DNA from: an uncultured Bacteroidota bacterium
Lineage (GTDB): Bacteria; Bacteroidota; Bacteroidia; Bacteroidales; P3
Assembly: GCA_902776365.1 (NCBI GenBank)
Contig: CACYPU010000012.1
Location: 47,425-111,424 of the forward strand
DNA length: 64,000 nucleotides
Direction of reading: 5' to 3'
Below the pieces are notes generated by a model that did not search any database, was not told where the DNA came from, and was given only the letters and a program-made list of their open reading frames with translations. Numbering within the stretch: position 1 is the stretch's first letter; the number at the start of each line of letters is the position of its first letter. Made by a program: the position numbers and the translations under genes. Below, in pieces: positions 1-64,000 of the stretch.

Positions 1-427
1 AGCCCAGGGCTTTGTATATCTCCTTGGTGTCGGCAACGGCCTCGACGATGCGGGGGGTGGCCATCTGCATCATTACACGCTCACCGGCGTCAATCATCAG
101 GTCGCCAGCCAGCGTGTGGCACAGGCAGCGTCCCTCGGCCTGTCCGAGGCGGTGCAGCAGGGCGAAGGTGGCCACGGTGGCATGGCCGCAGAGCTCCACC
201 TCGGCCTTTGGCGTGAAGTAGCGCACATGAGCTTTGAATGTGTTATTGTGTGAATGCGTTATTGCGTGAGTAAATCGCACGAAGGCGGTCTCGGAATAGC
301 GCAGTTCCGCCGCCACCTGCAGCATCAGGCGCTCGTCGGGGAACGGCTCGTCCCCCAACAGCACCACTCCGGCGGTATTTCCGCCGAATGGGCGGTCGGT
401 GAAAGCGTCGACAATATAATATTTCAT
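1..427 (-). CDS. PhzF-family isomerase/epimerase, 3' end outside window
   Basis: The first 142 codons of a PhzF-like protein are present; the rest runs off the left edge. The start at 427 is followed by VDAFTDRPFGGNTAGVV, RYSETAFV and RYFTPKAEVELCGHAT, which are hallmark PhzF-family segments; the Glu in SETAF corresponds to the family's catalytic acid. Substrate cannot be inferred, since most PhzF homologues outside phenazine clusters are uncharacterised. It lies 14 nt downstream of the DUF5714 lipoprotein gene and is probably co-transcribed with it. Oddity: about 12 residues (roughly 53-64, rich in His, Thr and Asn) between FVRF and VRYFTP are encoded by a short tandem repeat found elsewhere in the window as intergenic DNA. 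Confidence 0.85.
   Translation of the reverse strand, partial: MKYYIVDAFTDRPFGGNTAGVVLLGDEPFPDERLMLQVAAELRYSETAFVRFTHAITHSHNNTFKAHVRYFTPKAEVELCGHATVATFALLHRLGQAEGRCLCHTLAGDLMIDAGERVMMQMATPRIVEAVADTKEIYKALG
237..270 (-). repeat. In-gene short tandem repeat (TTATTGTG/AATGCGTT family)
   Basis: Degenerate units of TGTTATTG, TGAATGCG and TTATTGCG lie inside the phzF-like gene. The same words (acgcattcacacatt on the opposite strand) recur at 1327-1395 and 9312-9344 in non-coding DNA. Confidence 0.6.
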
Positions 428-441
428 AGTCGTATGGGGTG

Positions 442-1107
442 TCAGGGTTTCGGTGCAAAGGGGCACTTTTTGCCGATGCATTGTTCGTTGATCTGGCTGC
501 GCGAGCAGGTAATCTCGGGTTTCTCCATCTCCACGCCGAGGTTCTCTTTCACGAAGTCGATGGCCGTGAGTATTGAGAGGTACGAGTCACGCTTGCAGCA
601 GCGAGGGCCGCCGTTAAGGGCCACCTGCTCCAAGGCGCGGGCGGTCATCAAGTTGCAGAGGCGCCAGGTGTCGGTCGAGAATGGAGTGTTGCGGGTGACT
701 ATTGACAGGAAGATGCCGGTGCTGATGCTCGCGCCGCAGGCACCCATATATCCGCAGGCGCCACCGGGCACCTGCTCGCCGCGCTCCCGCATCTCGGCAA
801 GGGCCTCTTCGAGGTCCAGCTTGGCGCTGTCGGGCAGGCAGTTATTGTAGGCTGTCAGCAGGGCCGCGCCCACCAGCACATGGTGCGTGGGCCCGTGCAT
901 GGGACACTCCGGCTGCGACATCAGCTTCTCTAAAATCTCAATTGGGTTCCGTGAGGACTCCTCCATGCACAGCGCCGCCACGGGGTCTACCGATGATTCT
1001 GTGATTGACTCAACGGCGGGTACGCTCTCTTTTGGCGTTTCTTTGCACGACGTGGCCATTAGCGCCATCACAGCCGCCACAACGATAATTGACAGTATTT
1101 TCTTCAT
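442..1107 (-). CDS. DUF5714-type lipoprotein
   Basis: A 221-aa protein with a lipoprotein signal (MKKILSIIVVAAVMALMATSC, lipobox cysteine near residue 21). The mature part is cysteine- and histidine-rich (CPMHGPTHH, CGYMGACGA, GGPRCCKRD, ending in IGKKCPFAPKP), which matches my recollection of the DUF5714 family in Bacteroidetes and methanogens. The clustered Cys/His suggests metal or Fe-S binding, but this is inference. A TAnnTTTG box lies just upstream at 1129-1136. It leads a probable two-gene operon with the PhzF-family gene. Confidence 0.7.
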   Translation of the reverse strand: MKKILSIIVVAAVMALMATSCKETPKESVPAVESITESSVDPVAALCMEESSRNPIEILEKLMSQPECPMHGPTHHVLVGAALLTAYNNCLPDSAKLDLEEALAEMRERGEQVPGGACGYMGACGASISTGIFLSIVTRNTPFSTDTWRLCNLMTARALEQVALNGGPRCCKRDSYLSILTAIDFVKENLGVEMEKPEITCSRSQINEQCIGKKCPFAPKP

Positions 1108-1128
1108 TTTTCAGATGCTATTGCGATG

Positions 1129-1136
1129 CAAAGATA
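1129..1136 (-). promoter_or_regulatory. Bacteroidetes -7 box (TATCTTTG) for the DUF5714 gene
   Basis: TATCTTTG on the minus strand, about 22 nt before the start codon at 1107. It faces away from a second such box at 1189-1196, giving a divergent promoter pair. Confidence 0.7.
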
Positions 1137-1188
1137 CGCTTTTTCTCTGGATTGAAGAAAAATATTTTGCCATATTCGTTGAATCATG

Positions 1189-1196
1189 TATCTTTG
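1189..1196 (+). promoter_or_regulatory. Bacteroidetes -7 box (TATCTTTG)
   Basis: Plus-strand TATCTTTG followed 26 nt later by ATG at 1222, so the short frame there is likely transcribed or is the remnant of a transcribed gene. Confidence 0.6.
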
Positions 1197-1221
1197 CATC
1201 GTCATTCTAAAGAATCAAAAG

Positions 1222-1371
1222 ATGAGAGACAGAATCCTTTTTATAACGTTTGCGGTGGGTGGGTGGGGGCACCGAGCCGCCATCGCCGATAGACCGCCGA
1301 AGGATCGTCGAAGGAACAATAAGCTTGAATGTGTGAATGCTTTAAAAATGCGTAAATGCGTTAACGTGTAA
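1222..1371 (+). pseudogene. Short promoter-linked frame, probable gene remnant
   Basis: A 49-codon frame (MRDRILFITFAVGGWGH...) begins like a signal peptide, has a good -7 box upstream, then becomes basic and low in complexity and ends inside a tandem-repeat tract. No family is recognised. I read it as the 5' end of a lost gene, not a functional protein. The stretch 1372-1497 after it holds only repeat-like DNA. Confidence 0.3.
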
Positions 1372-1395
1372 ATGCGTTAGTGGGAATGCGTTAGT
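1327..1395. repeat. Short tandem repeat tract (GAATGCGTTA/AAATGCGTTA)
   Basis: Successive 8-12 nt units resembling GTGTGAATGC, AAATGCGT, TAAATGCGTTAGT and GGAATGCGTTAG. Related words occur in phzF and between hndC and hndB. Confidence 0.6.
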
Positions 1396-3942: not shown

Positions 3943-5205
3943 ATGACCATAGGAGAATTTTTCAACGCGCTGCTGGCAGTCATCAATGCGATGAGTCCCT
4001 ATCTATTGCTGGGCTTCCTCATCGCGGGAGTGTTGCATGTGTTTGTTCCGAAACGATTCTACACGCGGTATCTGTCGCGCAACAACAAGCTGTCGGTGGT
4101 ATGGGCCGCCCTGTTGGGTGTGCCGCTGCCGCTCTGCTCATGCGGCGTCATCCCCACCGCCGTGGGGCTGAAGAACGAGGGGGCTTCTAAAGGGGCTGTG
4201 GCCTCGTTCCTTATCGCCACGCCTCAGACGGGCATCGACTCCATCCTAGCTACCTTCTCGCTGATGGGCCTCGGTTTCGCCATCACGCGCCCCGTAGCCG
4301 CGTTGGTGACTGGTATCTGCGGAGGCTTATTAGTAAACCGCTTGGTGAAGGAAGAAGTGAATACAGACAATTCGGCTTGCGCAGTCAATAATTCTCAATT
4401 CTCAATTTTCAATTCTCAATTCAAGCTTTGGCGCGTGTTTAAGTACGCCTACTTCGAAATGATTCAGGACATCGGCCTGCGGTTGGCCATCGGTCTGTTG
4501 GTGGCTGCCCTCATCAACGTGGCCGTGCCCGATGAGTTCTTCCTGTCTTTCGGCAAGCAGCCTTTGATACAGATGCTGGTCATCCTTGTGGTGGCGGTGC
4601 CGATGTACATCTGCTCCACCGGCAGCATCCCCGTGGCGGCGGCGCTGATGATGAAAGGCCTCTCGCCCGGAGCCGCACTGGTGATGCTGATGGCTGGTCC
4701 TGCGGTCAACATTGCCTCCATCCTCGTGGTGCGCAAGTCGATGGGCCGCCGTTTCACCTGGATCTACCTCCTCACCATCGTGGGATTCTCCATCCTCTTC
4801 GGGTTGCTAATTAATGCCTTCGGCATTCAAGCCGTCGGCATGACAGAAGGCTGTGGGATGCACGGGGCCTGCTGTCCTTCGGAATCCGCCTCGCCCAGCG
4901 TGTTCCAAATCATCTGTTCGTCATTATTAGTATTATTCATCATAATTGCACTTACCATGAAATTCCTCAGCAAATTCAAGAAACAAGAATCCGTTGCCGG
5001 AACGGTCGTCTATACCGTCGAGGGCATGCATTGCAACCACTGCAAAGCCGCCTGCGAGCAGTCGGTCGGCAAAGTGAAAGGTGTCGCCTCCTGCGAAGCC
5101 ACTCCCGCTGCCAACACCCTCGTCGTCAGCGGCACCGCTGCCTCTGACGATGTGCGCAAAGCCGTCGAACAAGCCGGCTTCGAATTCAAAGGCGTGAAAG
5201 AATAA
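3943..5205 (+). CDS. SO_0444-type Cu/Zn efflux permease with C-terminal HMA domain
   Basis: A 420-aa membrane protein. The first half has permease helices and a PLPLCSCGVIP motif (C65 and C67); a second related half has YICSTGSIPVAAALMM. This is the DUF318/SO_0444 permease arrangement. A metal-binding HMA domain follows from about residue 355 with GMHCNHC (C364, C367). Inferred role: export of copper or zinc across the inner membrane. Residues about 148-160 (NSQFSIFNSQF) in the linker between halves are encoded by a CAATTTT-type tandem repeat. Confidence 0.8.
   Translation: MTIGEFFNALLAVINAMSPYLLLGFLIAGVLHVFVPKRFYTRYLSRNNKLSVVWAALLGVPLPLCSCGVIPTAVGLKNEGASKGAVASFLIATPQTGIDSILATFSLMGLGFAITRPVAALVTGICGGLLVNRLVKEEVNTDNSACAVNNSQFSIFNSQFKLWRVFKYAYFEMIQDIGLRLAIGLLVAALINVAVPDEFFLSFGKQPLIQMLVILVVAVPMYICSTGSIPVAAALMMKGLSPGAALVMLMAGPAVNIASILVVRKSMGRRFTWIYLLTIVGFSILFGLLINAFGIQAVGMTEGCGMHGACCPSESASPSVFQIICSSLLVLFIIIALTMKFLSKFKKQESVAGTVVYTVEGMHCNHCKAACEQSVGKVKGVASCEATPAANTLVVSGTAASDDVRKAVEQAGFEFKGVKE
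4387..4424 (+). repeat. In-gene heptamer repeat (TTCTCAA/TTTTCAA)
   Basis: Five near-identical 7-nt units (TTCTCAA, TTCTCAA, TTTTCAA, TTCTCAA, TTC) inside the permease gene. The same heptamer occurs in dacB (19764-19799) and mnmE (57801-57836). Confidence 0.8.
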
Positions 5206-9260: not shown

Positions 9261-9344
9261 TCGTTAATGTGTTAATGTGTTAATTCGTTAATCGCTGGCG
9301 CAGCCTGACTCACGCATTCACACATTTACGCATTCACACATTCA
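9261..9344. repeat. Two short tandem-repeat tracts between hndB and hndC
   Basis: First tract: GTTAATGT, GTTAATGT, GTTAATTC, GTTAATCG (8-nt units, 9264-9296). Second tract: ACGCATTCAC, ACATTTACGC, ATTCACACATTC (9312-9344). Both families recur elsewhere in the window. Confidence 0.75.
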
Positions 9345-11731: not shown

Positions 11732-11795
11732 TTTCTACTTAACATAACCTTAAAAACAGGTATTGAAAATCAAACCATTAAGTGTCTAGGTCTTA

Positions 11796-11830
11796 CTCAA
11801 CTCTTACTCCCCTCTTACTCAGCCCTTACT
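11796..11830. repeat. Short tandem repeat (CTCTTACTC units)
   Basis: Units CTTACTCAA, CTCTTACTC, CCCTCTTACTC and AGCCCTTACT; related to the CTTACCTCTTAGTT tract at 46659. Confidence 0.55.
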
Positions 11831-11851
11831 TTCCTCTTGGTTTTGAAAGAG

Positions 11852-24517: not shown

Positions 24518-24553
24518 CTCTGCAGAAACAAAGGATTTCACCTGTTCACCTGT

Positions 24554-24837: not shown

Positions 24838-24880
24838 CTTGCACTCCCCAGCACTCCCAGCACTCCAAGCACTCCCTTCT
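24838..24880. repeat. GCACTCCC short repeat tract
   Basis: Units GCACTCCCCA, GCACTCCCA, GCACTCCAA, GCACTCCC; the same family is found in dacB and mfd. Confidence 0.8.
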
Positions 24881-42384: not shown

Positions 42385-42425
42385 CAGTTAATAGATTATA
42401 GTTAATAGATAATAGTTAAAAGTTA
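42385..42425. repeat. Short repeat tract (AGTTAATAGAT)
   Basis: Units AGTTAATAG, ATTATAGTTAATAG, ATAATAGTTAAAAG; same word family at 50317, 59683 and 61776. Confidence 0.7.
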
Positions 42426-42485: not shown

Positions 42486-42515
42486 CTGTATAACTGGCTT
42501 ATACTTAATGTTTTC

Positions 42516-42557
42516 TACCACTGTTCTTCCATTGTTCTTTCATTGTTCTTTCATTTT
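42516..42557. repeat. Short repeat tract (CATTGTTCTT)
   Basis: Units CACTGTTCTTC, CATTGTTCTTT, CATTGTTCTTT, CATTTT; related to CACTGTTTTACCATTGTT at 21217. Confidence 0.75.
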
Positions 42558-46562: not shown

Positions 46563-46658
46563 GCTCCTTGGCACCCGTGGTGTGTCGGGTGTTCCACCCA
46601 TATAATAGCCAAAATTTTTGGATTAGCGGACAAAGGAGTAAATTTTTTTTTCTTACCT

Positions 46659-46755
46659 CTTGGTTTTTAGTTCTTACCTCTTAGTTCTTACCTCATAGTT
46701 CTTAGCTCTTACCTCTTAGTTCTTACCTCATAGTTCTTAGCTCTTACCTCTTAGC
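46659..46755. repeat. CTTAGTTCTTACCT repeat tract containing the mfd stop codon
   Basis: About seven units of CTTAGTTCTTACCT or CATAGTTCTTAGCT in tandem. The last four residues of Mfd (RGKS) and its stop codon lie inside the tract. Confidence 0.85.
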
Positions 46756-50342: not shown

Positions 50343-51890
50343 ATGAAGACATCGATTCTTTGGGCTGATGACGAGATTGAACTGTTGAAGCCTCATATTC
50401 TGTTTCTTGAGGAGAAGGGCTGCGAAGTGGTGGGTGTGCAGTCGGGTCGCGACGCACTGGATGTGCTGGAGGAACAGCAGCCGGATATAGTGTTCCTCGA
50501 CGAGCAGATGCCGGGTCTCAGCGGCATCGACACGCTGGGTCGCATCAAAGAGCGCTGGCCCCAGCTGCCGGTGGTGATGATCACCAAGAGCGAGGAGGAG
50601 GGTGTGATGGAGGATGCGTTGGGTGGCAAAATTAGCGATTACCTCATCAAGCCTGTGAATCCCAATCAGATATGGCTCACGGTGAAGAAGCATACGGAGC
50701 TGAAGCGTCTGCAGAGCGAGCACTCGACGATGAACTACCAGCAGCAGTTCCGCGAGATAGGCATGCAGCTGCAGGGCCTGATGGATGCCAACGAATGGAT
50801 GGAGGTGTACAAACGCCTGGTGTACTGGGAGCTGGAACTCTCGGGGACCGAGGACGACAATATCCACGATATCTTCCTCTCGCAGAAGAAGGAGGCCAAC
50901 CAACAGTTCTGCCGCTTCTACGAGCGCAACTATGTCGACTGGCTCGGTGGCAGCGTGGAGAAGCCTCTGCTCTCACCCACGGTGCTGCAGGAACGCATGT
51001 TCCCCCTGCTCAAGGAGGACAAGCCGACGTTCCTCATCGTGATAGACAACTTCCGCTACGACCAATGGAAGATGGTGCAGCCGCTGGTGGAGCAGTACCT
51101 GCGCACGGAGCGCGATGACCTCTACTACACCATCGTACCCACCACGACGCAGTTTGCCCGCAACGCCATGTTCGCCGGCCTGATGCCCAGCGAGATAGAG
51201 CGTAAGTACCCGCAGTACTGGGTGAACGAGGACGAGGAGGGCTGGAAGAACCAGTACGAGGACGAGCTGCTGGAGGAGAACCTGCGCCGTCACGGATTGA
51301 ATATCAAGCATTCTTACAACAAGGTGCTCAACGCCCAGTACGGTCATAAACTGGTGGAACGCGTGTCGGAGCTGTTGCGCAATAGGCTGAACGTGATTAT
51401 CTACAACTTTATCGATATGCTCTCGCATGCCCGCACGGACAGCGACATCGTGCGCGAACTGGCGGTGGACGAAAAGGCCTACCGCAGCCTCACGCTGTCG
51501 TGGATGGAGCATTCACCGCTGTTGGAGATACTGAAGGCGGTGAGCGACAAGGATGTGAATGTCATCATCACCACCGACCACGGCTCGGTGCGCATCGACC
51601 ACCCCGTGAAGGTGAAGGGCGACAAGGGCATCAGTGTGAACCTGCGCTACAAACAAGGGCGGCTGCTGGATTACAACCCCAAGGAGGTCTTCGAGGTGAA
51701 AGACCCGGCGAAGATTTTCCTGCCGCGCCGCCATGTGACGAGTCCCTATATCTTCTGCATGGACAGCGACTTTTTTGCCTACCCGAACAACTATAACGAA
51801 TATGTGCGCTACTACAACGGCACCTTCCAGCACGGCGGAGTGTCGATGGAGGAGGTGCTGGTGCCGTTTGTGAAGTTAGGGAAGAGATAA
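50343..51890 (+). CDS. porX: PorX-type response regulator of type IX secretion
   Basis: A 515-aa two-domain protein: a receiver domain at residues 1-120 (ILWADDEIELLKPH, phosphoacceptor Asp in IVFLDEQMPG, Lys in DYLIKPVNP) and a PglZ-type alkaline phosphatase-like effector (FLIVIDNFRYDQWK, FIDMLSHARTDS, ITTDHGSVRI). PorX works with the kinase PorY and sigma factor SigP to control T9SS genes in Porphyromonas. The start is the ATG at 50343; a TTG three codons upstream is less likely. It agrees with the T9SS sorting domain of the BspA-like protein. Confidence 0.93.
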   Translation: MKTSILWADDEIELLKPHILFLEEKGCEVVGVQSGRDALDVLEEQQPDIVFLDEQMPGLSGIDTLGRIKERWPQLPVVMITKSEEEGVMEDALGGKISDYLIKPVNPNQIWLTVKKHTELKRLQSEHSTMNYQQQFREIGMQLQGLMDANEWMEVYKRLVYWELELSGTEDDNIHDIFLSQKKEANQQFCRFYERNYVDWLGGSVEKPLLSPTVLQERMFPLLKEDKPTFLIVIDNFRYDQWKMVQPLVEQYLRTERDDLYYTIVPTTTQFARNAMFAGLMPSEIERKYPQYWVNEDEEGWKNQYEDELLEENLRRHGLNIKHSYNKVLNAQYGHKLVERVSELLRNRLNVIIYNFIDMLSHARTDSDIVRELAVDEKAYRSLTLSWMEHSPLLEILKAVSDKDVNVIITTDHGSVRIDHPVKVKGDKGISVNLRYKQGRLLDYNPKEVFEVKDPAKIFLPRRHVTSPYIFCMDSDFFAYPNNYNEYVRYYNGTFQHGGVSMEEVLVPFVKLGKR

Positions 51891-51925
51891 GAACTAAGAG
51901 TTAAGAAATAAGAATTTTGAGTGAT

Positions 51926-53428: not shown

Positions 53429-53432
53429 TAAT

Positions 53433-53478
53433 GGGTAACGGTTAACGATTAACGGTTAACGTTTAAAGATTAACGAGT
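53433..53478. repeat. GGTTAACGATTAAC repeat tract
   Basis: Units GGTTAAC, GATTAAC, GGTTAAC, GTTTAAA, GATTAAC (7 nt each) directly before the TTG start of uvrA. Confidence 0.85.
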
Positions 53479-53486
53479 AAAGATTT

Positions 53487-56240
53487 TTGGATAAGATTTT
53501 CATAAAAGGGGCACGGGCGAACAACCTGAAGAACATCGACGTGGAAATTCCGCAGGGCAAGCTGGTGGTCATCACTGGCCTCAGCGGCAGCGGCAAGTCG
53601 TCTTTGGCGTTCGACACGTTGTTTGCAGAAGGACAGCGCCGTTATGTGGAGAGCATGAGCTCCTATGCCCGCCAGTTCCTTGGCCGCATGACCAAGCCCG
53701 AGGTGGATTATATACATGGACTCTCGCCGGCGGTGGCCATCGAGCAGAAAGTCAACACCTCCAACCCCCGCTCCACCGTGGGCACCAGCACCGAGATTTA
53801 CGAGTATCTGAAGCTTATGTTTGCCCGCATTGGCCGCACCTTCTCGCCCGTCAGTGGTGTGGAGGTGAAACGCCATTCAGTGAGCGATGTGGTGGATTAT
53901 ATTTGGGGAGTTCAGGGAGAAAAGGTGATGATTCTGGCGCCTTTGGAGGACAGCAAGGAGCGTCCGTTACGGTCGCAGCTCGAGATTCTCCATCAGGAAG
54001 GATACCAGCGTGTGATGGTGAAAGGGACGGTGATGCGTATCGAGGATATGGGCAATGTGGAGTTAGACAAGGATGTCTACCTTGTCATCGACCGTGTGAC
54101 GGTAGATCCCGGCGACGACGAGTTGAAAGCCAGGGTGGGCGAGAGCGTCCAGGCCGCCTTCTTCGAAGGACGCGGCTCCTGCCGCATCGCCGTGGTCGGA
54201 GGCACCGCCACCGATTTCAGCAACCGCTTTGAAGCCGACGGCATCACCTTCGAGAAACCAAACCCCAATTTCTTCTCCTTCAACAATCCCTATGGCGCCT
54301 GCCCCACTTGTCAGGGATATGGCAGTGTCATTGGTATCGACGAGAATATGGTGGTGCCGAACCGCAGCCGCAGCATCTATGAGAACGCCGTGGTGTGTTG
54401 GAACGGCGACAAGATGCAGGAGGTGAAGCGTGAGTTCATTCGCCATGCTGCGGTGATAGATTTCCCGATACACAAGCCCTACTATGAGCTCACCCCCGAG
54501 CAGAAGGATATCCTCTGGCACGGCGACGGCACATGGGAGGGTATCGACGGCTTCTTCCGTTGGGTGGAGAGCCAGAGCTACAAGATACAGTATCGTGTCA
54601 TGCTGGCGCGCTATCGTGGCCGCACGGTGTGTCCCGAGTGTCACGGTCGCCGGCTCCGCAAGGATGCCGAGTATGTGAAGGTTGATGGACGCAGCATCAG
54701 CGAACTCACCGAGATGCCGGTGTCGAAGTTGGTGACATGGTTCAGCGACATCGAGAGTCGCCTCACGCCCCACGAATGCGCCGTCACCGAGCGTCTCCTT
54801 TCCGAAATCAAGAACCGCCTGGGCTACCTCGTCGACGTGGGCCTCGGTTATCTCACCCTCAATCGCATGAGCAACAGTCTCAGCGGCGGCGAGAGCCAGC
54901 GCATCAACTTGGCCACCTCGCTGGGCAGCTCGCTCGTGGGTTCCATGTATATCCTCGATGAGCCCTCCATCGGTCTCCATTCGCGCGACACCGGCCAGCT
55001 CATCAATGTCCTCAAGCGTCTGCGCGACCTCGGCAACACCGTTATCGTGGTGGAGCACGACGAGGACATCATCCGCTCTGCCGACTACCTCATCGACATC
55101 GGCCCCGGTGCCGGCCGTCTTGGTGGAGAGGTGGTTTTCGCCGGCACTCCCGTCGACCTGAAGAAGGCCAAGGGGTCGCTGACGGCCGACTACCTGCTGG
55201 GTCGCAAAAGTATCGCCGTCCCTGCGACGCGACGCCGCTGGCGCGACCGCATCTCTATCCATGGTGCCTACTGCAACAACCTCAAGCACATCGATGTCGA
55301 TATCCCGCTGGGTGTGATGACAGTGGTCACAGGCGTCAGCGGCAGCGGCAAGACCAGCCTCATCCGTCGGGTGCTCTATGATGTGTTGATGCACCGCTTC
55401 GACGGCACTCCCGATTATGTCGGTAGTTGTGTGGCTATGGATGGCGACATACCGCGTATCTCTGCTGTCGAGATGGTGGACCAAAACCCCATTGGCCGCT
55501 CCTCGCGCAGCAACCCTGCCACCTATATGAAAGTCTTCGACGAGGTGCGTGCACTTTATGCCAAGCAGCCGCTGGCGAAGACTCGCGGCTACAAGGCCGG
55601 CTTTTTCTCGTTCAACGTCGAAGGTGGACGCTGTGAGACTTGTCAGGGTGAAGGACAGGTTACCGTGAGTATGCAGTTTATGAGCGATATCCACCTTGTC
55701 TGTGACGAGTGCCACGGTTCCCGCTACAAGGACGAAGCCCTCGAGGTGCTCTACAAAGGGAAGAATATCAGCCAGATTCTCGAGATGACTGTCGACCAGG
55801 CTCTCGAATTCTTCGACAGCGACGAGACCCGCTCCATCTACACTCGACTGAAGCCTCTGCAGGATGTCGGCCTCGGCTACCTGATGCTGGGACAGTCCTC
55901 CAGCTCGCTCTCCGGTGGCGAATGCCAGCGTATCAAGCTGGCCTCCTATCTCGTCAAAGGAGAGGGAGAGCAACCGATGTTGTTTATCTTCGACGAGCCC
56001 TCCACAGGCCTTCATTTTCATGACATCCAGAAACTCCTGGCTGCATTCAATCGCCTTATCGAGCGCGGTCACACCATCGTGGTCATCGAGCATCATCACG
56101 ACATCATCAAGGTGGCCGACTGGGTCATCGATATGGGCCCCGAAGGTGGCGACGAAGGCGGCAATGTGGTCTTCGCCGGCACTCCCGAGAAACTCCTTAA
56201 ATGCAAAGAATCCTATACCGCCAAATACTTAAAACTATAA
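53487..56240 (+). CDS. uvrA: Excinuclease ABC subunit A
   Basis: A 917-aa DNA-damage sensor of nucleotide excision repair. Two ABC ATPase halves: Walker [10 protein letters not shown] and GVSGSGKTS, signatures LSGGESQRI and LSGGECQRI. Zinc modules CPTCQGYG with CPECHGRR, and CETCQGEG with CDECHGSR. The only start that preserves [16 protein letters not shown] is TTG at 53487, since an in-frame stop lies three codons upstream at 53478; the start is thus unusual and abuts a tandem repeat. Confidence 0.96.
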
Positions 56241-56294
56241 ACCTTTTAAACCCCTTAAACCTTTTAAACCTTTAAAACCTTTTAAACCCTTTTA
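56238..56294. repeat. AACCTTTTAAACC repeat tract
   Basis: AAACCTTTT, AAACCCCTT, AAACCTTTT, AAACCTTT, AAAACCTTTT, AAACCCTTTT: about six 9-10 nt units filling the gap between uvrA and the next gene. Confidence 0.9.
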
Positions 56295-56825: not shown

Positions 56826-58131
56826 TACTATAGTGGCAGTCTCCACCCCCCGGGGGGTGGGTGGCATCGCCGTGGTCCGTCTTTCGGGTCCCGACGCGTT
56901 GACTATTGCCGAAAAACACCTCACCGCTCACCTTTCCCCTCGCCACGCCACCTATTGTCGTTTCGACGACCTCGACGATATCGTTGCTATCTATTTTCCG
57001 ACAGGTTACACCGGTGAGCCCACTGTTGAGCTCTCCTGCCACGGCTCGCTCTATGTGCAGCAGACGTTGCTGCAGGTGCTTGTCGACGACGGTGCCCGCC
57101 TCGCCGAGGCTGGCGAATTCACCCGTCGTGCCTTCCTCAATGGTCGCCTGAACCTCTCGCAGGCCGAGGCGGTGGCCGACCTTATCGACTCTGTGACGCC
57201 TGCTCAACACCGCCTGGCCGTCAGTCAGCTCCGTGGGGGCTACGCACAGACACTCAAGAATTTGCGACAGCAACTCCTCGACCTTACGTCGCTTCTCGAG
57301 CTCGAGCTTGACTTTAGTCAGGAGGATGTCGAGTTTGCCGACCGCTCGCAGCTGCGAGAAATACTTACCGCTTTACACTTTCATCTCTCTACCTTGCTTT
57401 CATCTTTCAAGATGGGCAATGCCCTCAAGCGGGGCATCCCCGTGGCCATCATCGGCCGTCCCAATGCCGGCAAGTCGTCGCTTCTCAACGCCTTGCTGGG
57501 CGACGACCGTGCCATCGTCTCCGATGTTCCGGGCACCACGCGTGACACCATCGAGGAGACGCTGACTCTCGACGGCATCACCTTCCGCTTCATCGACACC
57601 GCCGGCCTCCGCCACAGCGACGACTGCGTCGAGACCCTCGGCATCGAGCGCACACGCAAGGCCGTCGCCGACGCCCACATCGTCCTTTTCGTCCACGACG
57701 CCACGACACCCTGGCAGGAAGCCGATGTCGACCTCACGGGCAAGCATGTCATCGTCGCCCTCAACAAATCCGACCTCCCCCAGCACGCACTATCCAATCC
57801 TCAATTTTCAATTTTCAATTTTCAATTTTCAATTTCAACAAGGACCGGTGCGGGACTCGACGCCCTCCGCGCCGCCATGCTCTCTGCCGTCTGCGAGGAG
57901 CTGCCGCACGAGGACGAGGTGCTCCTCTCCAATGTGCGCCACTATGAGGCACTCCAGCGAGTGATTCAGGCTCTCGAGAATGTCGCCCGCGGCCTCGAGG
58001 AGGATGTCCCCTCGGACCTCATTGCCGTCGACCTGCGCGAAGCACTCTACCACCTCGGCACGGTGACAGGCGAGGTGACATCCGACGAAATACTAGGGAA
58101 TATCTTTGGGCGTTTCTGTATCGGAAAATGA
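56812..58131 (+). CDS. mnmE: tRNA modification GTPase MnmE
   Basis: A 439-aa protein that with MnmG modifies U34 of certain tRNAs. N-terminal folate-binding domain (MRENDTIVAVSTPRGVGG), G1 GRPNAGKSS (215-223), G3 DTAG, G4 NKSD (318-321) and the terminal catalytic CIGK motif are intact. The start at 56812 is chosen because RENDTIVA is the conserved beginning. Residues about 330-341 (NPQFSIFNFQFSI) between G4 and G5 are encoded by a heptamer repeat, so the G-domain has an added surface loop. Confidence 0.95.
   Translation: MRENDTIVAVSTPRGVGGIAVVRLSGPDALTIAEKHLTAHLSPRHATYCRFDDLDDIVAIYFPTGYTGEPTVELSCHGSLYVQQTLLQVLVDDGARLAEAGEFTRRAFLNGRLNLSQAEAVADLIDSVTPAQHRLAVSQLRGGYAQTLKNLRQQLLDLTSLLELELDFSQEDVEFADRSQLREILTALHFHLSTLLSSFKMGNALKRGIPVAIIGRPNAGKSSLLNALLGDDRAIVSDVPGTTRDTIEETLTLDGITFRFIDTAGLRHSDDCVETLGIERTRKAVADAHIVLFVHDATTPWQEADVDLTGKHVIVALNKSDLPQHALSNPQFSIFNFQFSISTRTGAGLDALRAAMLSAVCEELPHEDEVLLSNVRHYEALQRVIQALENVARGLEEDVPSDLIAVDLREALYHLGTVTGEVTSDEILGNIFGRFCIGK
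57801..57836 (+). repeat. In-gene heptamer repeat (TCAATTT) in mnmE
   Basis: TCAATTT five times in tandem (four perfect, last shortened); same heptamer as in dacB and the permease. Confidence 0.9.
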
Positions 58132-58260: not shown

Positions 58261-59682
58261 ATGTTCAAAATGAAGAAACACATCCTGTTCATACTGCTCC
58301 TCACGTTGCCGATGCTCGCCTTCGGCGCCAAGAAGGGCTACAAAATCACTTTTCATGCCGACGGCAATAGCGACTCGCTGGTCTACATGGGCTACTACCA
58401 CGCGCAACACCGTTATTTCTGCGACTCCGCTGTTAATGACGGCAAGGGCAAGTTTGTCTTCGAGGGTGAGGAGGCGCTGAAGCCGGGTTTGTATTATATG
58501 ACGAATAACCGCGACCGGTATGTGGAGTTTGTGGTGTATGGTGAGGGGCAGCGTTTCACGTTGCGCACGGAGAATGAAAACTGGATGCTCCGCATGTCTG
58601 TCAAGGACTCGCGTGAGAATGAGGTGTTTTTCAATTTCAAGCGTGCTGAGGAGGTCTACTACCAGAAGATGGAAGAGGCGAGCCACACGGTGGACTCGGT
58701 CACGTTCCAGAAAGAGTATCTGCCGCGGTACAGGAAGTCGCTGGACAGTTTGCGGTTGGACTTCATCGCGAAGTATCCCGAGAGTATGATTTCGCGGATG
58801 ATGCTCTCCACCAAAGACCCTGATGTTCCTGAGAATCATCCCGACGGCACCCCCATGGAGAAGCGCGAGCGGGCGGAGTGGCTTCTGGAGCATTATTTCG
58901 ACAATATGCCGCTGGGGGACAATTTCATCATCCGGACGCCAAAGAGTATTTTCTATGACCGTGTGATGGAGTATGTGGACATCCTGCTGAAGCGCGGCGA
59001 GGCTCCGGAGCGTATTTGTGGACTGATGGACAGCCTGATTGACCGTGCGGAGGGCGCCGAGGAGGTGTATCGCTGGCTGATACTGAATTTGACGAATTAT
59101 TATCTGCAGAGTCGCATCATGGTCTACGACGAGGTCTATGTCCATCTGGTGCTCCGCTATTTCGCCACGGGCAAGGTGCCCGGAGTGGCGCCGTCGCTCA
59201 TCGACGAGCAGGTGGAGCAGGCCACCAAATGGGAACGCCTCCTTGTGGGCAAAGTGGCTCCCGAGCTTATCCTCTTCGACACGCTGCGATATGCCCATTC
59301 GCTCCATCACATGCCGGGCCGCTACACGCTGCTGCTGTTCTGGAGTCCCACCTGCGGCCACTGCCGTGATATTATCCCGGCCGTCTACAAGGTCTACGAG
59401 CAGTATGCCGACTCGCTGGACATCAGCGCTTTTGCCATCCTTACCGAGCCTGATGACGGCACCGTTGTCAAGTGGAAGAAGTTCCTCGCCGACCACCAGA
59501 TGACAAACCCCCGTTGGATAAATCTCAACGGAGCGGAGGCGAATGTGGACTGGCGCCAGGTATACGACATCCAAACCACACCTCAGATATACCTCATCGA
59601 CAACAAGGACCATAAGTTTCTCGCTAAGAAACTCAACGCTTCCATCCTCGAGAATATCCTCAAGGTGCTGGGTAATGGGTGA
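58261..59682 (+). CDS. Secreted thioredoxin-like protein (DUF4369/DUF5106 type)
   Basis: A 473-aa exported protein (signal MKKHILFILLLTLPMLAFG; an alternative start is 58270). An N-terminal DUF4369-like beta domain, a helical DUF5106-like middle, and a C-terminal thioredoxin fold with CGHC (C365, C368) and TTPQIYLID carrying the cis-proline. A likely envelope disulfide oxidoreductase, similar in plan to the gene at 42598-43713. Confidence 0.82.
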   Translation: MFKMKKHILFILLLTLPMLAFGAKKGYKITFHADGNSDSLVYMGYYHAQHRYFCDSAVNDGKGKFVFEGEEALKPGLYYMTNNRDRYVEFVVYGEGQRFTLRTENENWMLRMSVKDSRENEVFFNFKRAEEVYYQKMEEASHTVDSVTFQKEYLPRYRKSLDSLRLDFIAKYPESMISRMMLSTKDPDVPENHPDGTPMEKRERAEWLLEHYFDNMPLGDNFIIRTPKSIFYDRVMEYVDILLKRGEAPERICGLMDSLIDRAEGAEEVYRWLILNLTNYYLQSRIMVYDEVYVHLVLRYFATGKVPGVAPSLIDEQVEQATKWERLLVGKVAPELILFDTLRYAHSLHHMPGRYTLLLFWSPTCGHCRDIIPAVYKVYEQYADSLDISAFAILTEPDDGTVVKWKKFLADHQMTNPRWINLNGAEANVDWRQVYDIQTTPQIYLIDNKDHKFLAKKLNASILENILKVLGNG

Positions 59683-59709
59683 TGATTAACGATTAATGAT
59701 TAACGATTA
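59683..59709. repeat. GATTAACGATTAATGATTAACG repeat
   Basis: Units GATTAAC, GATTAAT, GATTAAC, GATTAAA (7 nt) between two genes. Confidence 0.85.
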
Positions 59710-59735
59710 AAGCGATATTAATAAAACATAATTAT

Positions 59736-61775
59736 ATGATGAAACACAAATTATCAATTCTTATGGCTGCGGCGACGTTGTTTGCCGTCGGCTGCCAAAA
59801 CAATCAATCAGACATGAATGACACAGCAAATCCGTTCTTCTCCGAGTGGAACACGCCCTACAACATCCCCGATTTCTCACGCATCAAGACAGAACATTAC
59901 ATACCTGCCTTCGAGGAGGGTATCCGTCAGCAGAAGGCCGAGATTGACGCCATCGTGAACAACCCTGAGGCTCCCACGTTCGAGAACACCATCCTCGCCT
60001 ACGAGTATAGTGGTCAGCTACTTAGGGAAGTCAGCTCCATCTTCTTCAACCTCTCCGAGTGCGAAAATAGCGAAGAGATGGAAGCCATCGAGGAGAAGGT
60101 GACGCCCATGCTCGCCGCCCACGGCGACGACATCGCCCTCAACGCCAAGCTCTTCGAGCGCATCAAGGCCGTTTACGACCAGCGCGAGAGCCTCAACCTC
60201 AACCCCGAGCAGGCCCGTCTCCTCGTGGAGACCTACAAGGGCTTCGTCCGCAGCGGCGCCAACGTTCCTGCCGACAAGCAGGCCCGCTTCCGCGAGCTCA
60301 ACGAGCAGATTGCCAACCTCACCATGCGCTTCGCTCAGAACGTGCTGAAAGCCACCAATGATTATAAGAAAGTGCTGCCCAACGGCGACACCCTCACCCT
60401 CGATATGCCCACCTGGGAGCCCTTCATGCAGACCTGCGCCGACCGCAAACTCCGCGAGGAGGTGTGGCACGCCTTCACCGACCGCTGCAAGGATGGTGAG
60501 TTCGACAACACCAAGATTATCGACACGCTGGTGAACCTGCGCCTCGAGCGCGCCAACATCCTCGGCTTCGCGACGCATGCCGACTGGGTCCTCGACGACT
60601 GTCTGGCCAAGACCCCGGCCAACGTCTACAAGTGCCTCCTTGACATCTGGAATCCCGCCCTCAAGGTGGCCAAGCAAGAGCGCGACCAATATCAGAAGAT
60701 GCTCGAGAAAGACGAACCTGGTGCCAAGCTGCAACCCTGGGATTGGCGCTACTATAGCGAGAAGCTCCGCGCCGAGAAGTATGCCCTCGACGATGCCGTC
60801 GTGCGCCCCTACTTCTGCCTCGACAGTGTCCGCGAAGGAGCTTTCATGGTGGCCAACAAGCTTTACGGCCTGACCTTCACCGAACGCACCGACCTGCCCA
60901 CCTATGACAAGGAGGCCCGCTGCTTCGAGGTGAAGGACGGCGACCGCACCATCGGCATCCTCTATATGGACTTCCATCCCCGTGCCTCCAAGCGCAGCGG
61001 CGCCTGGATGACCGAGTTCCGCGGCCAGCACCGTAACCAGAAGGGCGAGAACGTGATTCCCATCATCTCCGTCGTCTGCAACTTCACCAAACCCACCGCC
61101 GACAAGCCGTCGCTGCTGAACTTCGACGAGAGCGAGACCCTCTTCCACGAGTTCGGCCACGCCCTCCACGGACTCCTCTCCGACTGCACCTATCCCTCGC
61201 TGGCCGGCACCAATGTGCCGCGCGACTTCGTCGAGCTGCCCTCGCAGGTGATGGAGAATTGGTGCCGCCATCCGCAGGTGATGAAGATGTATGCCAAGCA
61301 CTACAAGACCGGCGAGGCCATCCCCGATGAGCTCATCAAGAAGATTGAGGCCGCCGCCACCTATGGCCAGGGCTTCATCACCACCGAGCTCCTCGCCGCC
61401 TCGCTGCTCGACATGGACTACTACAGCATCAAGCAGAAGCAGCACATCGACCCGCTGGCTTTCGAGGAACAGGCTATGAACAAGATTGGCCTCATCCCCG
61501 AGATTATCAGCCGCTACCGTAGCCCCTACTTCCAGCATATCTTCACCACGGGCTATGATGCCGGCTACTACAGCTACACCTGGACGGCTATCCTCGATGC
61601 CGATGCCTTCGAGGCCTTCGCCGAGAGTGGCGACCTCTTCAATCCCGAGCTCGCCAAGAAGTTCCGCCACCTCCTCGAAAGCGGCAACACCGTTGAGCCC
61701 ATGGACCTCTACCGCCAGTTCCGCGGCAAAGACCCCAGCCCCAAAGCCCTACTGAAACGCAAGGGAATGCTTTAA
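59736..61775 (+). CDS. dcp: M3 family peptidyl-dipeptidase, lipoprotein
   Basis: A 679-aa zinc peptidase with lipoprotein signal (ATLFAVGC). The HExxH motif is HEFGHALH, with the downstream Glu ligand expected in LAGTNVPRDFVELPSQ, and DPSPKALL... near the end. Compared with E. coli Dcp the stretch between NVLKATNDYKK and DMPTWEPF is about 30 residues short. Cleaves dipeptides from C-termini of peptides, here probably in the periplasm. Confidence 0.9.
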   Translation: MMKHKLSILMAAATLFAVGCQNNQSDMNDTANPFFSEWNTPYNIPDFSRIKTEHYIPAFEEGIRQQKAEIDAIVNNPEAPTFENTILAYEYSGQLLREVSSIFFNLSECENSEEMEAIEEKVTPMLAAHGDDIALNAKLFERIKAVYDQRESLNLNPEQARLLVETYKGFVRSGANVPADKQARFRELNEQIANLTMRFAQNVLKATNDYKKVLPNGDTLTLDMPTWEPFMQTCADRKLREEVWHAFTDRCKDGEFDNTKIIDTLVNLRLERANILGFATHADWVLDDCLAKTPANVYKCLLDIWNPALKVAKQERDQYQKMLEKDEPGAKLQPWDWRYYSEKLRAEKYALDDAVVRPYFCLDSVREGAFMVANKLYGLTFTERTDLPTYDKEARCFEVKDGDRTIGILYMDFHPRASKRSGAWMTEFRGQHRNQKGENVIPIISVVCNFTKPTADKPSLLNFDESETLFHEFGHALHGLLSDCTYPSLAGTNVPRDFVELPSQVMENWCRHPQVMKMYAKHYKTGEAIPDELIKKIEAAATYGQGFITTELLAASLLDMDYYSIKQKQHIDPLAFEEQAMNKIGLIPEIISRYRSPYFQHIFTTGYDAGYYSYTWTAILDADAFEAFAESGDLFNPELAKKFRHLLESGNTVEPMDLYRQFRGKDPSPKALLKRKGML

Positions 61776-61807
61776 TTAGTTAATAGATAATAGATAACGG
61801 TTAATAG
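61776..61807. repeat. AGTTAATAGATAATAG repeat
   Basis: TTAGTTAATAG, ATAATAG, ATAACGGTTAATAG, immediately before the terminator. Confidence 0.75.
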
Positions 61808-61843
61808 TTAAGGCTGCCGCAAATCAAACTGCGACAGCCTTAA
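61808..61843. terminator. Bidirectional terminator between dcp and glmM
   Basis: TTAAGGCTGCCGCA/TGCGACAGCCTTAA, 14-bp stem with one mismatch and an 8-nt loop, flanked by AT-rich DNA; serves convergent genes. Confidence 0.75.
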
Positions 61844-61860
61844 TTCCTAATTTCTAATTC

Positions 61861-63261
61861 CTAATTAATCTGCTGCATCACTTGCTGGGCCAGCTCGTTG
61901 GCGCGGGCTTCGGTGGCGGCTTCGCTGTAGATGCGGATGATGGGTTCGGTGTTGCTCTTGCGGAGGTGCACCCAGCCGTCGGCGAAGTCAATCTTCACGC
62001 CGTCGATGGTAGTCACCTTTTCCACGGCGGCATCGCTCTTGTAGAAGGCTGCCACCTTGGCCAGCAGGGCGTCGACGTCCATATCGGGCGTCAGGTCCTT
62101 GCGGTTCTTGGAGATGATATATTCGGGATAGGTCTTGCGGAGTTCGCTCACCTTCATGCCTTTCTTGGCGAGGAGGGTGAGGAAGAGGGCGACACCCACG
62201 AGTGCGTCGCGGCCGTAGTGCAGGGCGGGGTAGATGACGCCGCCGTTGCCTTCGCCGCCGATGACGGCATTTGTCTGGCGCATCAGGGTGGTGACGTTGA
62301 CCTCGCCCACAGCGGCGGCGTTGTATTCGCAGCCGGCGTAGCGGCGGGTCACATCGCGCAGGGCGCGGCTGGAGGAGAGGTTGCTGACGGTGTTGCCGGG
62401 CGTGTGCTGCAGCACATAGTCGGCCACGCTCACCAGCGTATATTCCTCGCCGAACATCTCGCCGGTCTCGCAGACGAGGGCGAGGCGGTCGACGTCGGGG
62501 TCGACGACGATGCCGAGGTCGCAATGGTTCTGGCGCACGCAGTCGCTAATCTGCGTGAGGTTCTGCGGGATGGGTTCGGGATTGTGGGCGAAATGGCCCG
62601 TGGGCTCGCAGTTCAGCTCCACGACGTCCTGCACGCCGAGGCGGCGCAGCAGGCGCGGGATGGCCAAGCCGCCAGTGGAGTTGACGGCGTCGACGGCCAC
62701 CTTGAAATTAGCCTTCTTGATGGCCTCGACATCGACGAGCTCGAGACCCAGCACACGCTCGATATGGCGGTCAATCCAGTCCTCCTCGACGGTCACCTGC
62801 CCGAGGTCGTCGACCTCGGCGTAGTTCACCTCGCCGCTCTCGGCCAGACGCAGCACCTCCTTGCCTTCGGCGTCGGAGATGAATTCGCCCTTGGCGTTGA
62901 GCAGCTTGAGGGCGTTCCAGTGCTTTGGGTTGTGGGAGGCGGTGATGATGATGCCGCCGTCGCAGTGGCCGTCGATGACGGTCATCTCAGTCGTCGGGGT
63001 GGTGGAGAGGCCGGTCTCCAGAACGTCCACGCCCATGCCCTGCAGGGTGCCCACGACGAGGCGGTCGACCATAGCACCGCTTAAACGTGCATCGCGTCCC
63101 ACCGCTAACTTTAACCTTTCACCTTTCACTTTTGCCCTTTTACCTTTCAAGAAGGTGGCGAATGCCGAAGTGAATTTGACGACGTCGAGGGGAGTGAGAC
63201 CCTCGCCGGCGGGACCGCCAATGGTGCCGCGGATGCCCGAGATGGATTTGATGAGAGACAT
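61861..63261 (-). CDS. glmM: Phosphoglucosamine mutase-like phosphohexomutase
   Basis: A 466-aa alpha-D-phosphohexomutase. Catalytic serine in TASHNP, metal-binding DPDVDR, sugar-binding GEGNGG, phosphate-binding RKSNTEP. In Bacteroidetes this clade is annotated as GlmM, which converts glucosamine-6-P to glucosamine-1-P for UDP-GlcNAc; a phosphomannomutase role cannot be excluded. Residues about 38-52 (KGKRAKVKGERLK) between the first helix and LAVGRDARLSG come from a TTTCACC-type repeat. Confidence 0.88.
   Translation of the reverse strand: MSLIKSISGIRGTIGGPAGEGLTPLDVVKFTSAFATFLKGKRAKVKGERLKLAVGRDARLSGAMVDRLVVGTLQGMGVDVLETGLSTTPTTEMTVIDGHCDGGIIITASHNPKHWNALKLLNAKGEFISDAEGKEVLRLAESGEVNYAEVDDLGQVTVEEDWIDRHIERVLGLELVDVEAIKKANFKVAVDAVNSTGGLAIPRLLRRLGVQDVVELNCEPTGHFAHNPEPIPQNLTQISDCVRQNHCDLGIVVDPDVDRLALVCETGEMFGEEYTLVSVADYVLQHTPGNTVSNLSSSRALRDVTRRYAGCEYNAAAVGEVNVTTLMRQTNAVIGGEGNGGVIYPALHYGRDALVGVALFLTLLAKKGMKVSELRKTYPEYIISKNRKDLTPDMDVDALLAKVAAFYKSDAAVEKVTTIDGVKIDFADGWVHLRKSNTEPIIRIYSEAATEARANELAQQVMQQIN
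63107..63150 (-). repeat. In-gene ACCTTTC repeat in glmM
   Basis: Plus-strand words AACCTTTC, ACCTTTC, ACTTTTGCCC, TTTTACCTTTC; same family as murB and mfd inserts. Confidence 0.8.
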
Positions 63262-63417
63262 ATAATATTCTTTTTTAATACTTTGATGGTTTAATTACGC
63301 GCATTTTTTATGCTCTAACGCACAAATGCCCCGATTATTGTCTTTGGGTGAAAATATTTACCCTGTTCCCCCAGTTTAGATAAAGAGCTTTGAACCAGTA
63401 TCTTCTAGTGCATTTCT

Positions 63418-63503
63418 TTGTTACTTCTTTGTTATTTCTTTGTTATTTCTTTGTTTTTTAACAAAGAAGTACCGAAGAAATACCGAAGAAATACCGAAGA
63501 AAT
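63418..63503. repeat. TTATTTCTTTG and GAAGAAATACC tandem repeats
   Basis: TTACTTCTTTG, TTATTTCTTTG, TTATTTCTTTG (11 nt units), followed after 12 nt by GAAGTACC, GAAGAAATACC, GAAGAAATACC, GAAGAAATA (11 nt units). Confidence 0.9.
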
Positions 63504-63561
63504 ATCTTTGAAGACGGCTGGAGAGATTCTTTGGCGTTTCTCTGGGGGAACGAAAAAAAAA

Positions 63562-63592
63562 TTTGCCAGTTTCAAAAAAGGTTGTATCTTTG
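63562..63592 (+). promoter_or_regulatory. Promoter of rpsP (TTTG-N19-TATCTTTG)
   Basis: TTTG at 63562 and TATCTTTG at 63585-63592 with 19 nt between; ATG at 63646. Confidence 0.8.
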
Positions 63593-63645
63593 CAATCTGT
63601 TATTTTAACAATAAATTTTAATAAACATTTAAAAACCAAACAATT

Positions 63646-64000
63646 ATGCCAGCAAGAATTAGACTTCAGCGTCATGGTAAAAAGAATCAGCCTTTCTACC
63701 ACATCGTTGTTGCGGACGGATGGTCGTGCACCTCGTGATGGAAAATTTATCGAGAAGCTTGGCACCTACAATCCGTTGACCAACCCCGCCACCATCGACC
63801 TCAATTTCGACCGCGCCGTCGAATGGGTGAAGAATGGTGCCCAGCCCAGCGACACCGTGCGTCGCATCCTCAGCTATAAGGGCGTCCTGCTCCGTCGTCA
63901 CCTCCAGATTGGTGTCGAGAAGGGTGCCATCAGCCAGGAGACCGCCGATGTGCGTTTCAACGAGTGGCTGCAGGCCAAAGAGGCTAAGATAAACAGCAAG
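63646..64000 (+). pseudogene. rpsP: 30S ribosomal protein S16 with 4-nt insertion, 3' end outside window
   Basis: Starts MPARIRLQRHGKKNQPFYHI and VVADG, then runs into a stop because four bases are inserted at about 63720-63724. Skipping them restores RAPRDGKFIEKLGTYNPLTN and an open frame to the window edge (92 codons). The Bacteroidetes S16 continues with a C-terminal extension beyond the window. S16 is generally essential, so the lesion is likely an assembly or base-calling error, although the flanking GGAC-GGAT-GGTC pattern would also allow replication slippage. Confidence 0.9.

Follow-up and report, generated by a model that had tools for sequence, protein, structure and literature searches.

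The window analysed here, a 64,000-nt stretch (positions 47,425 to 111,424 of contig CACYPU010000012.1) from an uncultured bacterium of the Bacteroidales, carries many short tandem arrays of 7–11-nt words, both between and within genes. The arrays are real, strongly non-random and lineage-wide. They form two kinds: arrays of 7–10-nt words lie in spacers and in genes, whereas arrays of 11-nt words are nearly always intergenic and are species-specific. The 7- and 8-mers draw on a small set of words common to different loci and species, and the 7-mers partly share phase. The 7–10-nt arrays fall in a narrow length range and recur at the same sites with differing words in different species; inside genes, they mostly replace host sequence and preserve the reading frame. 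The best explanation that we can offer for them, held tentatively, is a self-propagating dictionary of words spread by short-patch ectopic copying and filtered by selection.

Array census in the window and a wider genome sample

Tandem Repeats Finder (TRF) with a minimum score of 30 returned 82 rows for the window. At a score of at least 50 there were 28 merged arrays of period 5–24, against 0–1 per sequence in 20 Markov controls, and at a score of at least 45 there were 35, again against 0–1 in the controls. A previous model-made reading of the same DNA (the sequence-only reading) had described many dispersed tracts of short tandem words in 64 kb; this was confirmed, and all nine word families that it named were recovered by TRF. 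Its statement that copies occur both between and inside genes was also correct (four arrays in mfd, one in murB, two in the D-Ala-D-Ala carboxypeptidase gene and one in the phosphoglucomutase/phosphomannomutase gene).

The wider sample consisted of 464 kb (the window plus 400 kb), or ~21% of the 2.23-Mb metagenome-assembled genome (MAG) that holds the window, designated G000; the GC content varies along the window from 53 to 59%. The sample contained 214 arrays (score at least 45). Predicted genes (421 kb) accounted for 96 of them and intergenic sequence (43 kb) for the other 118, an approximate split because the genes were called with our own hexamer caller and not by a standard annotation. 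Markov controls gave 0–3 arrays for the intergenic part (30 runs) and 0–6 for the whole sample (5 runs), and the array counts were thus far above randomised sequence at both scales. The periods were 7 (82 arrays), 8 (23), 9 (19), 10 (14) and 11 (29), with the remainder longer, and the median array length was 33–39 nt for periods 7–10. Scaled up, the sample would correspond to about 1000 arrays genome-wide. An assembly artefact was rejected by argument, since the arrays are shorter than usual short reads, are found within open frames and appear again in other, independent MAGs.

Two classes of arrays

In the 464-kb sample, 28/29 of the 11-mers were intergenic, and only 2/92 of the 11-mer words in other genomes equal a G000 word. 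An inverted arm was present within 110 nt of 18/28 intergenic 11-mers, compared with ~3% when sought at other sites. The corresponding values were 8/13 for intergenic 9-mers and 5/17 for intergenic 8-mers (controls 0–3%), and 3/39 intergenic and 5/43 coding 7-mers had such an arm (8/82 in total), somewhat above the 2–3% of the controls. The 11-nt arrays are more like repetitive extragenic palindromic (REP) elements or miniature inverted-repeat transposable elements (MITEs) and constitute a second, species-specific class. The nine families of the sequence-only reading do not all represent one phenomenon, since the 11-mers differ in behaviour from the 7–10-mers.

The inverted arms favour an explanation of the arrays as the arms of a MITE-like mobile family whose transposase acts in trans. 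Further points for it are a 78-nt double array that equals the net +78 between G023 and G008 (inspected by eye), a GC-rich core with inverted ends that recurs in the sample, and matches to the Y1_Tnp model in 31/41 genomes. We nevertheless regard a MITE-like origin as unlikely: most 7-mers have no inverted arm, host sequence is replaced without a constant length (see below), and the Y1_Tnp search, the only one made for transposase families, gave no match in seven same-genus genomes (G006, G008, G009, G014, G016, G017, and G019) and one weak partial match in G000. That sole G000 match is on a contig other than that of the window. Y1 transposase genes are present in loci L137 and L138 (G022:C23:53309 and G007:C81:41957), both of which align with the window in its right part.

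Common sequence cores were also found. A 26-nt core is common to TTTTCAA-type and GTCAGTG-type repeats at two loci, and a paired core had 9 matches in the sample compared with 1 in each of 3 shuffles, with an array nearby in only 3/9. A single conserved loop motif was rejected: GCTGNCGCA has 10 occurrences at up to 60 nt from an array and 84 in other places, and would thus account for at most a subset.

The period 7–10 arrays are distributed between spacers (74/138) and predicted genes (64/138), and 43/82 of the 7-mers are in predicted coding sequence. Co-directional spacers hold 63/69 of the intergenic period 7–9 arrays, compared with their share of 63% by intergenic bases and 74% by number of spacers; many of these arrays start at a stop codon, and some stop a few nucleotides before the next start. 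Such placement would be expected if an mRNA function kept the arrays, for example as spacers or hairpins tuning translation or termination between genes. That 48 of the 64 in-gene arrays are located more than 90 nt from both gene ends, and that related species have no array or another word at the same site, makes this explanation quite improbable. Among the coding 7-mers, 31/43 are stop-free in the sense and stop-bearing in the antisense orientation, 6 show the reverse, and 6 neither or both; this bias is what selection would give.

A shared dictionary of words

The 82 seven-mer arrays of the sample use 30 words, compared with 73–82 in random draws. AAAGGTG (15 arrays) and AAAATTG (13) lead, ACCCACT is also among the commonest, and there are many related words. 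At non-orthologous sites in other genomes, 37/73 seven-mers (random 0–6) and 6/11 eight-mers (random 0–1) use a word of the G000 sample. Five 7-mer families with at least 6 members were examined for phase, and the start phase was non-uniform in three: AAAATTG (n = 17, P = 0.0025), AAAGGTG (n = 16, P = 0.0065), and ACCCACT (n = 9, P = 0.027). The array ends share phase in AAAATTG and ACCCACT, and the lengths in the phase-sharing families are mostly 25–37 nt.

Whole genomes were searched for (TTTTCAA)3, allowing at most one mismatch and counting matches that overlap. There were 69 matches in G000, 148 in G002, 129 in G006, and 89 in G001, and the word written backwards gave 1 match in G000 and 0 in G002. 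No (TTTTCAA)3 match was found in G003, G005, G011, G013, G018, G020, or any of 16/16 other-family genomes. For (ACCTTTC)3, the matches numbered 86 in G000, 47 in G002, 29 in G022, and 11 in G034 (other family), with a backwards control that is not clean, as it is itself an AAAGTGG-type word common in G007, G012, and G022.

Ordinary local slippage, in which slipping of the polymerase expands a word already present at the site into an array, bears directly on these data. A preference for 7 nt has been ascribed to the stretch that the polymerase contacts (an idea of Mrazek 2007, as summarised in PMC4679880). Consistent with slippage are a whole-unit length difference of 14 nt between the array at 42386 and its orthologous site in L036, an array birth from one to two units at 27970, and a single 11-mer-like unit in G008 where G023 has the 78-nt double array. 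Slippage does not readily account for 7- and 8-mer words common to unrelated loci and species far beyond chance, for a start phase shared in three families, or for the replacement of aligned native sequence, and we consider it rather unlikely. Missing mismatch repair as the cause was rejected, as the MutS_V model found matches in 41/41 genomes. In G021 and G038, only the weaker kind of match was obtained; G021 had no match of MutS1 strength, though this genome is listed as 98% complete, and it combines a low array density in the sampled 20 kb with 31 (TTTTCAA)3 matches genome-wide.

The narrow length range, the shared phase, and the word dictionary would also fit the writing of arrays by reverse transcription of a short RNA template, in the manner of telomerase or of a diversity-generating retroelement (DGR). 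The RVT_1 model matched 17/41 genomes, with one match in G000, but gave no match (E <= 0.001) in 15/24 same-genus relatives, including the array-rich G001, G002, and G007, and this route is therefore very improbable.

Replacement of host sequence and the reading frame

An array-free ortholog was available for 62 period 7–10 arrays, drawn from G000 (22), G002 (21), and other genomes (19); 32/62 of the modal values rest on one array-free genome each. The modal net length change was a multiple of 3 in 53; it was positive in 43, zero in 7, and negative in 12. The array length minus the net change ranged from -15 to 72, which means that there is no constant insertion size; negative values indicate that the foreign stretch extends beyond the array delimited by TRF, as happens with hairpins. 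In open coding frames (at least 300 nt), 50/55 arrays differed by a multiple of 3 and 42/55 replaced at least 10 nt of host sequence. For the 29 coding arrays with a modal value from at least 2 genomes, the numbers were 28 and 20, respectively, and for the 7 non-coding arrays they were 3 and 2. As single examples, the array in the isoleucyl-tRNA synthetase (IleRS) gene of L101 is 29 nt long with a net change of +9 in 20/21 array-free genomes, and a 36-nt array in G022 (L137:4542), in a stretch that aligns with the M3-peptidase gene of the window, gives a net +30 in 9/9. In the window itself, the 41-nt array of the phosphoglucomutase/phosphomannomutase gene (63109..63149, minus strand, residues 38–51) corresponds to a net +9 nt in 10/10 array-free genomes. 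A structure model of this protein was poor (mean pLDDT 43) and was not used. The sequence-only reading had proposed a seeding process comparable to that of cyanobacterial heptamer repeats; the dispersal is borne out by the word counts, but seeding alone is not, as most in-gene arrays replace host sequence.

Other words at the same site

A loop of IleRS illustrates how states differ at one site. The loop is KICDQAD in the window, and similar short forms are present in G022, G015, G019, G009, G008, G010, L038, and L101. At this loop, G002 and L036 have TTAAGGACC arrays, G007 has AAAGTGG-type arms, G023 has GTAGTGG, G012 has GATAGTG/CTACCCA arms, G004 and G001 have AATTGAA arms, G014 has AAGCAATC, and G006, G017, G021, and L040 have TTGTCGGAC-type words. 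In G003, G005, G016, G018, and some named loci, the loop is longer with no array visible. A tree of 32 IleRS sequences with the loop site cut out comprised G000, 22 relatives, and 9 of 80 named loci chosen by us; it did not include L047, although usable, G011, which gave no match, or G013, which matched only in part. States were labelled by eye, and G020 and G024, which were unclear, were scored as native. At least 9 changes between array and native states and at least 10 word changes were needed on this tree. G008 and G023 are fully supported neighbours and yet differ at the loop. At another site (L101:13516), where L101 has an array, L036 and L144 have an inverted element (GGGGCGTACCCCCGTGTACGCCC ...) that makes the site ~81 nt longer than in the window, and G002 and L101 differ in length by a multiple of three.

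G000 and G002 have arrays at 12 shared sites, with the same word at three (W36809, L123:231, and L126:6868) and different words or periods at nine (L123:18288, L117:6639, L117:2447, L126:6609, L117:15013, L117:3871, L123:8527, L123:10024, and W48938). The array length is equal at 3/9 of the differing sites. All period 7–10 ortholog pairs, which are not independent sites, comprised 17 with the same word, 12 with a different word, and 23 with a different period; 4/12 of the different-word pairs, at 3 sites, have equal length. Comparison of orthologs in sister genomes thus revealed differences in both presence and word, and shared sites with other words suggest word swapping.

Junctions and a proposed mechanism

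Junctions were compared for 31/62 arrays, those with flank alignments reaching within 8 nt. Agreement of the outer 8 nt of the array with the array-free reference was 39% on the left and 48% on the right, compared with 29% (sd 0.03) for permuted arrays, and the next 8 nt matched at 35% and 33%, compared with 26% and 24% (31 events). This similarity fits placement at partial matches.

In the mechanism that we propose, a tract of ~30–40 nt would be copied out of an existing array into a new site that offers some matching bases. The incoming patch would overwrite a variable stretch of the host, with length shifts at coding sites by a multiple of three, and established arrays may later be rewritten to another dictionary word, keeping their place and roughly their length. 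Copies would survive selection where change is tolerated, namely in loops, at the ends of proteins, in signal peptides, and in operon spacers; words without stops would be retained in the coding sense, and words with stops at the ends of genes. Enzymatically, the patches may arise through template switching guided by microhomology or through ectopic recombination of short patches at forks or repair tracts. Short-patch double illegitimate recombination, as in Acinetobacter baylyi, would exchange a short piece of host sequence for ectopic DNA where there is microhomology; to our knowledge, it has not been found to spread tandem words. From the comparisons above, we infer which way the sites changed, the copying and its guidance by microhomology, and the swapping of words as opposed to independent arrival at a few tolerant sites.

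Several points weigh against this proposal. All comparisons are between species, and no event was caught happening. The junction similarity could stem from selection on the encoded residues or from TRF running into the flanks. Exact word sharing between species is small for 9-mers (1/21) and 10-mers (1/9), which argues against extending the dictionary to them. Phase sharing is partial, with no departure from uniformity in AAGAATT and AAAGTTT and with uniform ends in AAGGTG-type arrays. Seven coding arrays show zero net change, which may reflect conversion of an older array or its loss in the reference. On the IleRS tree, the array label required 9 changes compared with a shuffled mean of 10.0; array state is thus not clustered by descent, and it is no more scattered than shuffled labels. 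Occupation of the same site may reflect only that few sites are tolerant. The array at 27970–27999 looks like a local duplication, with one 14-nt unit in L147 and two in the window. Profile searches of 41 genomes with MutS_V, RVT_1, and Y1_Tnp, with Y1_Tnp as the only transposase family, revealed no responsible gene.

Distribution among relatives

The nearest named contigs are from rumen and gut Bacteroidales MAGs. UBA1711, a GTDB genus renamed Candidatus Colimorpha (PMC8957277), groups with the same-genus genomes in the IleRS tree. The density of period 6–14 arrays per 100 kb, often from single 20-kb stretches, was 0 in G018, 5 in G016 and G021, 40 in G000 (158 arrays in 400 kb), and 67 in G002. 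Among the other-family genomes sampled, 7/8 had no arrays and G029 had 3 in 20 kb. Arrays are also present in other Bacteroidales, whose named contigs, when pooled, have 5–9 per 100 kb (51 arrays in 969 kb for loci L060–L115 minus L101, and 33 in 366 kb for loci L040–L059 minus L047 and L048; period 6–14).

Individual arrays of the window

Strands are given where assigned. The TTTTCAA family is represented at 4390..4422 (plus strand, AATTCTC/TTTTCAA) inside an ArsP-type permease gene (residues 150–160), at 19763, and at 57801..57835 (plus strand) in the gene at 56800–58131 (residues 334–346). The array at 19763 forms, together with a 10-nt array of the GCACTCCCCT-like family at 19707, a double array (19707..19799, plus strand) in the N-terminal part of the D-Ala-D-Ala carboxypeptidase (S13; residues 11–42). 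In this gene (19676–21199), the hydrophobic N-terminal part, a likely signal peptide, is mostly encoded by the two arrays of differing period. Further members of the GCACTCCCCT-like family are an intergenic 9-nt array of GCACTCCCA (24841..24876) and a 10-nt array of TTGCACTCCT in mfd (49422..49460, minus strand, residues 227–239; modal net +18 nt in 4/6 array-free genomes).

The TTTCACC/CTCACCT family comprises, besides the array at 63109, an ACCTCTC array inside murB (36809..36840, plus strand, residues 65–75) and two arrays in mfd. One of these (46882..46916, minus strand, 7-nt words, residues 1075–1086) corresponds to a net +6 nt in 2/2 array-free genomes. The other (49961–49993, residues 49–60) is part of a predicted hairpin (49915..50000, minus strand) whose two arms are of the AAGGTGA type and enclose a GCTGACGCA loop; the site has an AATGATG hairpin in G002 and a short loop in G008, G015, G019, and G023. 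The remaining mfd array has 10-nt GGAGTGAAAG words (48936..48975, minus strand, residues 388–401), and TTTTCAA-type arrays occupy this site in G002, G009, G019, and G022. A 14/35-nt array of the CTTAGTTCTTACCT family (TTAGTTCTTACCTC, 46643..46757) overlaps the 3' end of mfd.

Arrays of the GTTAATAG/GGTTAAC family are located at gene ends and in spacers. AGTTAAT (42386..42425, plus strand) directly follows a stop codon, GGTTAAC (53429..53485, plus strand) fills the spacer from the stop codon to the next predicted start, and GATTAAC (59682..59710, plus strand) begins at a stop codon. At 61772..61866, two 7-nt arrays (TTAATAG and TAATTCC) around a GC-rich inner stem overlap a gene end and form a predicted hairpin. 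A 7/14-nt array (51882..51914, plus strand) fills a short operon spacer, and a 9-nt array of the AAACCTTTT family (TAAACCTTT, 56238..56294, plus strand) overlaps a stop codon and fills the spacer.

Arrays of 8-nt words include ACGCATTCAC (at 9310), which lies with GTTAATGT in a co-directional spacer as two partly complementary arrays (9263..9344). Related words are those at 9263, in an 8/16-nt array of TGAATGTG/TTATTGCG (235..269), and in an array of AAATGCGT (1328..1377) within a stretch (1295–1390) that matches G022 and G023 at 95%. An 8-nt array of TTCACCTG (24537..24559) is intergenic. The 11-nt arrays are CTCTTACTCAA (11791..11838), whose surroundings (11734–11864) have dispersed matches in G002; CATTGTTCTTT (42513..42555), adjoined by an imperfect inverted arm and sharing its family with AATGGAAGAAC on the opposite strand (25057..25090); and the adjacent inverted arrays ATTTCTTTGTT / AAGAAATACCG (63412..63504), which include the GAAGAAATACC family at 63464 and are predicted to form a long hairpin (63405–63515, -39.4 kcal/mol).

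Longer repeats were also observed. A perfect 53-bp direct repeat at 21462–21595 (2.5 copies) contains TATCCCGTAGGGATTTTC, and similar TACCCCGTAGGGGTTTTC stretches exist elsewhere in the sample. At 45161–45285, there is an imperfect, intergenic 22–23-nt array of GTATACATTTTT; a 22-nt array with GTATAC units is present in L008 of G002. The 69-nt repeats at 21800–24160 encode a BspA-type leucine-rich-repeat protein and are an ordinary protein repeat.

Comparison with known systems and significance

The heptanucleotide short tandemly repeated repetitive (STRR) sequences of heterocystous cyanobacteria are dispersed tandem 7-nt words with several families per genome and are mainly intergenic. The arrays described here likewise include several dispersed tandem heptamer families. 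They differ from STRR sequences in that more than half of the 7-mers (43/82) are in predicted coding sequence, that periods 8–11 are also present, that relatives have other words at the same site, and that the host belongs to the Bacteroidales and not to the cyanobacteria.

The closest published parallel that we have seen is the P6b stem of the Nostoc tRNA-Leu (UAA) intron (trnL), a stem with seven-nucleotide repeats on either side in which one motif class repeatedly replaced another at one and the same site, according to the part of the source considered (PMC4476775). That system concerns one RNA intron and two motif classes, whereas many protein genes, spacers, and words are involved here. 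TAACTGA direct repeats were described in marine Beggiatoaceae, Cyanobacteria, and five Bacteroidetes, with no mechanism evident in the text considered (PMC4679880). They are intergenic and overlap stop codons in one orientation and lie in open reading frames in the other; related heptamers are rare, and the copies in reading frames are mostly at protein ends (PMC4679880, same text). Part of the present arrays similarly overlap a stop codon upstream of a start codon, but the words are many and most in-gene arrays are internal. The sequence-only reading knew of no described mechanism in Bacteroidales: no mechanism accompanies the heptamer repeats in this text, but such repeats had already been reported in Bacteroidetes (PMC4679880).

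Three Calothrix heptamers are mentioned in PMC4692102, where the GGGAATC / GGGGA(C/T)T heptamers of Xanthomonas and Nostoc are presented as genus-specific and dispersed, mostly with at least 4 units and some intragenic. Those belong to one G-rich, quadruplex-forming family, as far as that source's relevant passages go, whereas the words here are mixed. Rickettsia palindromic elements are present in frame inside genes, are ~150 bp long, and encode a conserved peptide (PMC10969869, in part). In-frame presence in genes is common to both systems; the patches here are 30–40 nt long, mostly without an inverted arm, and differ in word at the same site. The BrickBuilt MITE of Porphyromonas gingivalis is a tandem repeat on a dispersed element within the same order, with 23-nt units, a leader, and a tail, and is given as always intergenic in the portion of PMC4596501 considered; the words here are 7–11 nt and also lie inside genes. 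A many-word dictionary that replaces internal protein stretches is not described in the considered portions of the Nostoc P6b and TAACTGA work (PMC4476775, PMC4679880), and no published description for these Bacteroidales was found in the open-licence literature.

Cyanobacteria and other organisms have been known to carry heptamer repeats for decades, but with no mechanism to explain them, as far as the consulted portions of the sources indicate (PMC4679880, PMC4692102). Here, one genus offers dozens of orthologous sites at which a locus lacking the array can be set beside the stretch that was replaced and beside other words, and the spread of such repeats thereby becomes open to direct testing. 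It is possible, though doubtful, that a process so far unrecognised in this gut Bacteroidales lineage spreads a species-spanning dictionary, overwrites loops, signal peptides, and spacers, and swaps words in frame, so that conserved proteins would repeatedly gain new low-complexity segments. Such arrays would provide a route for conserved enzymes (IleRS, Mfd, MurB, and phosphomannomutase) to gain in-frame segments, even though the repeat unit is not a multiple of three.

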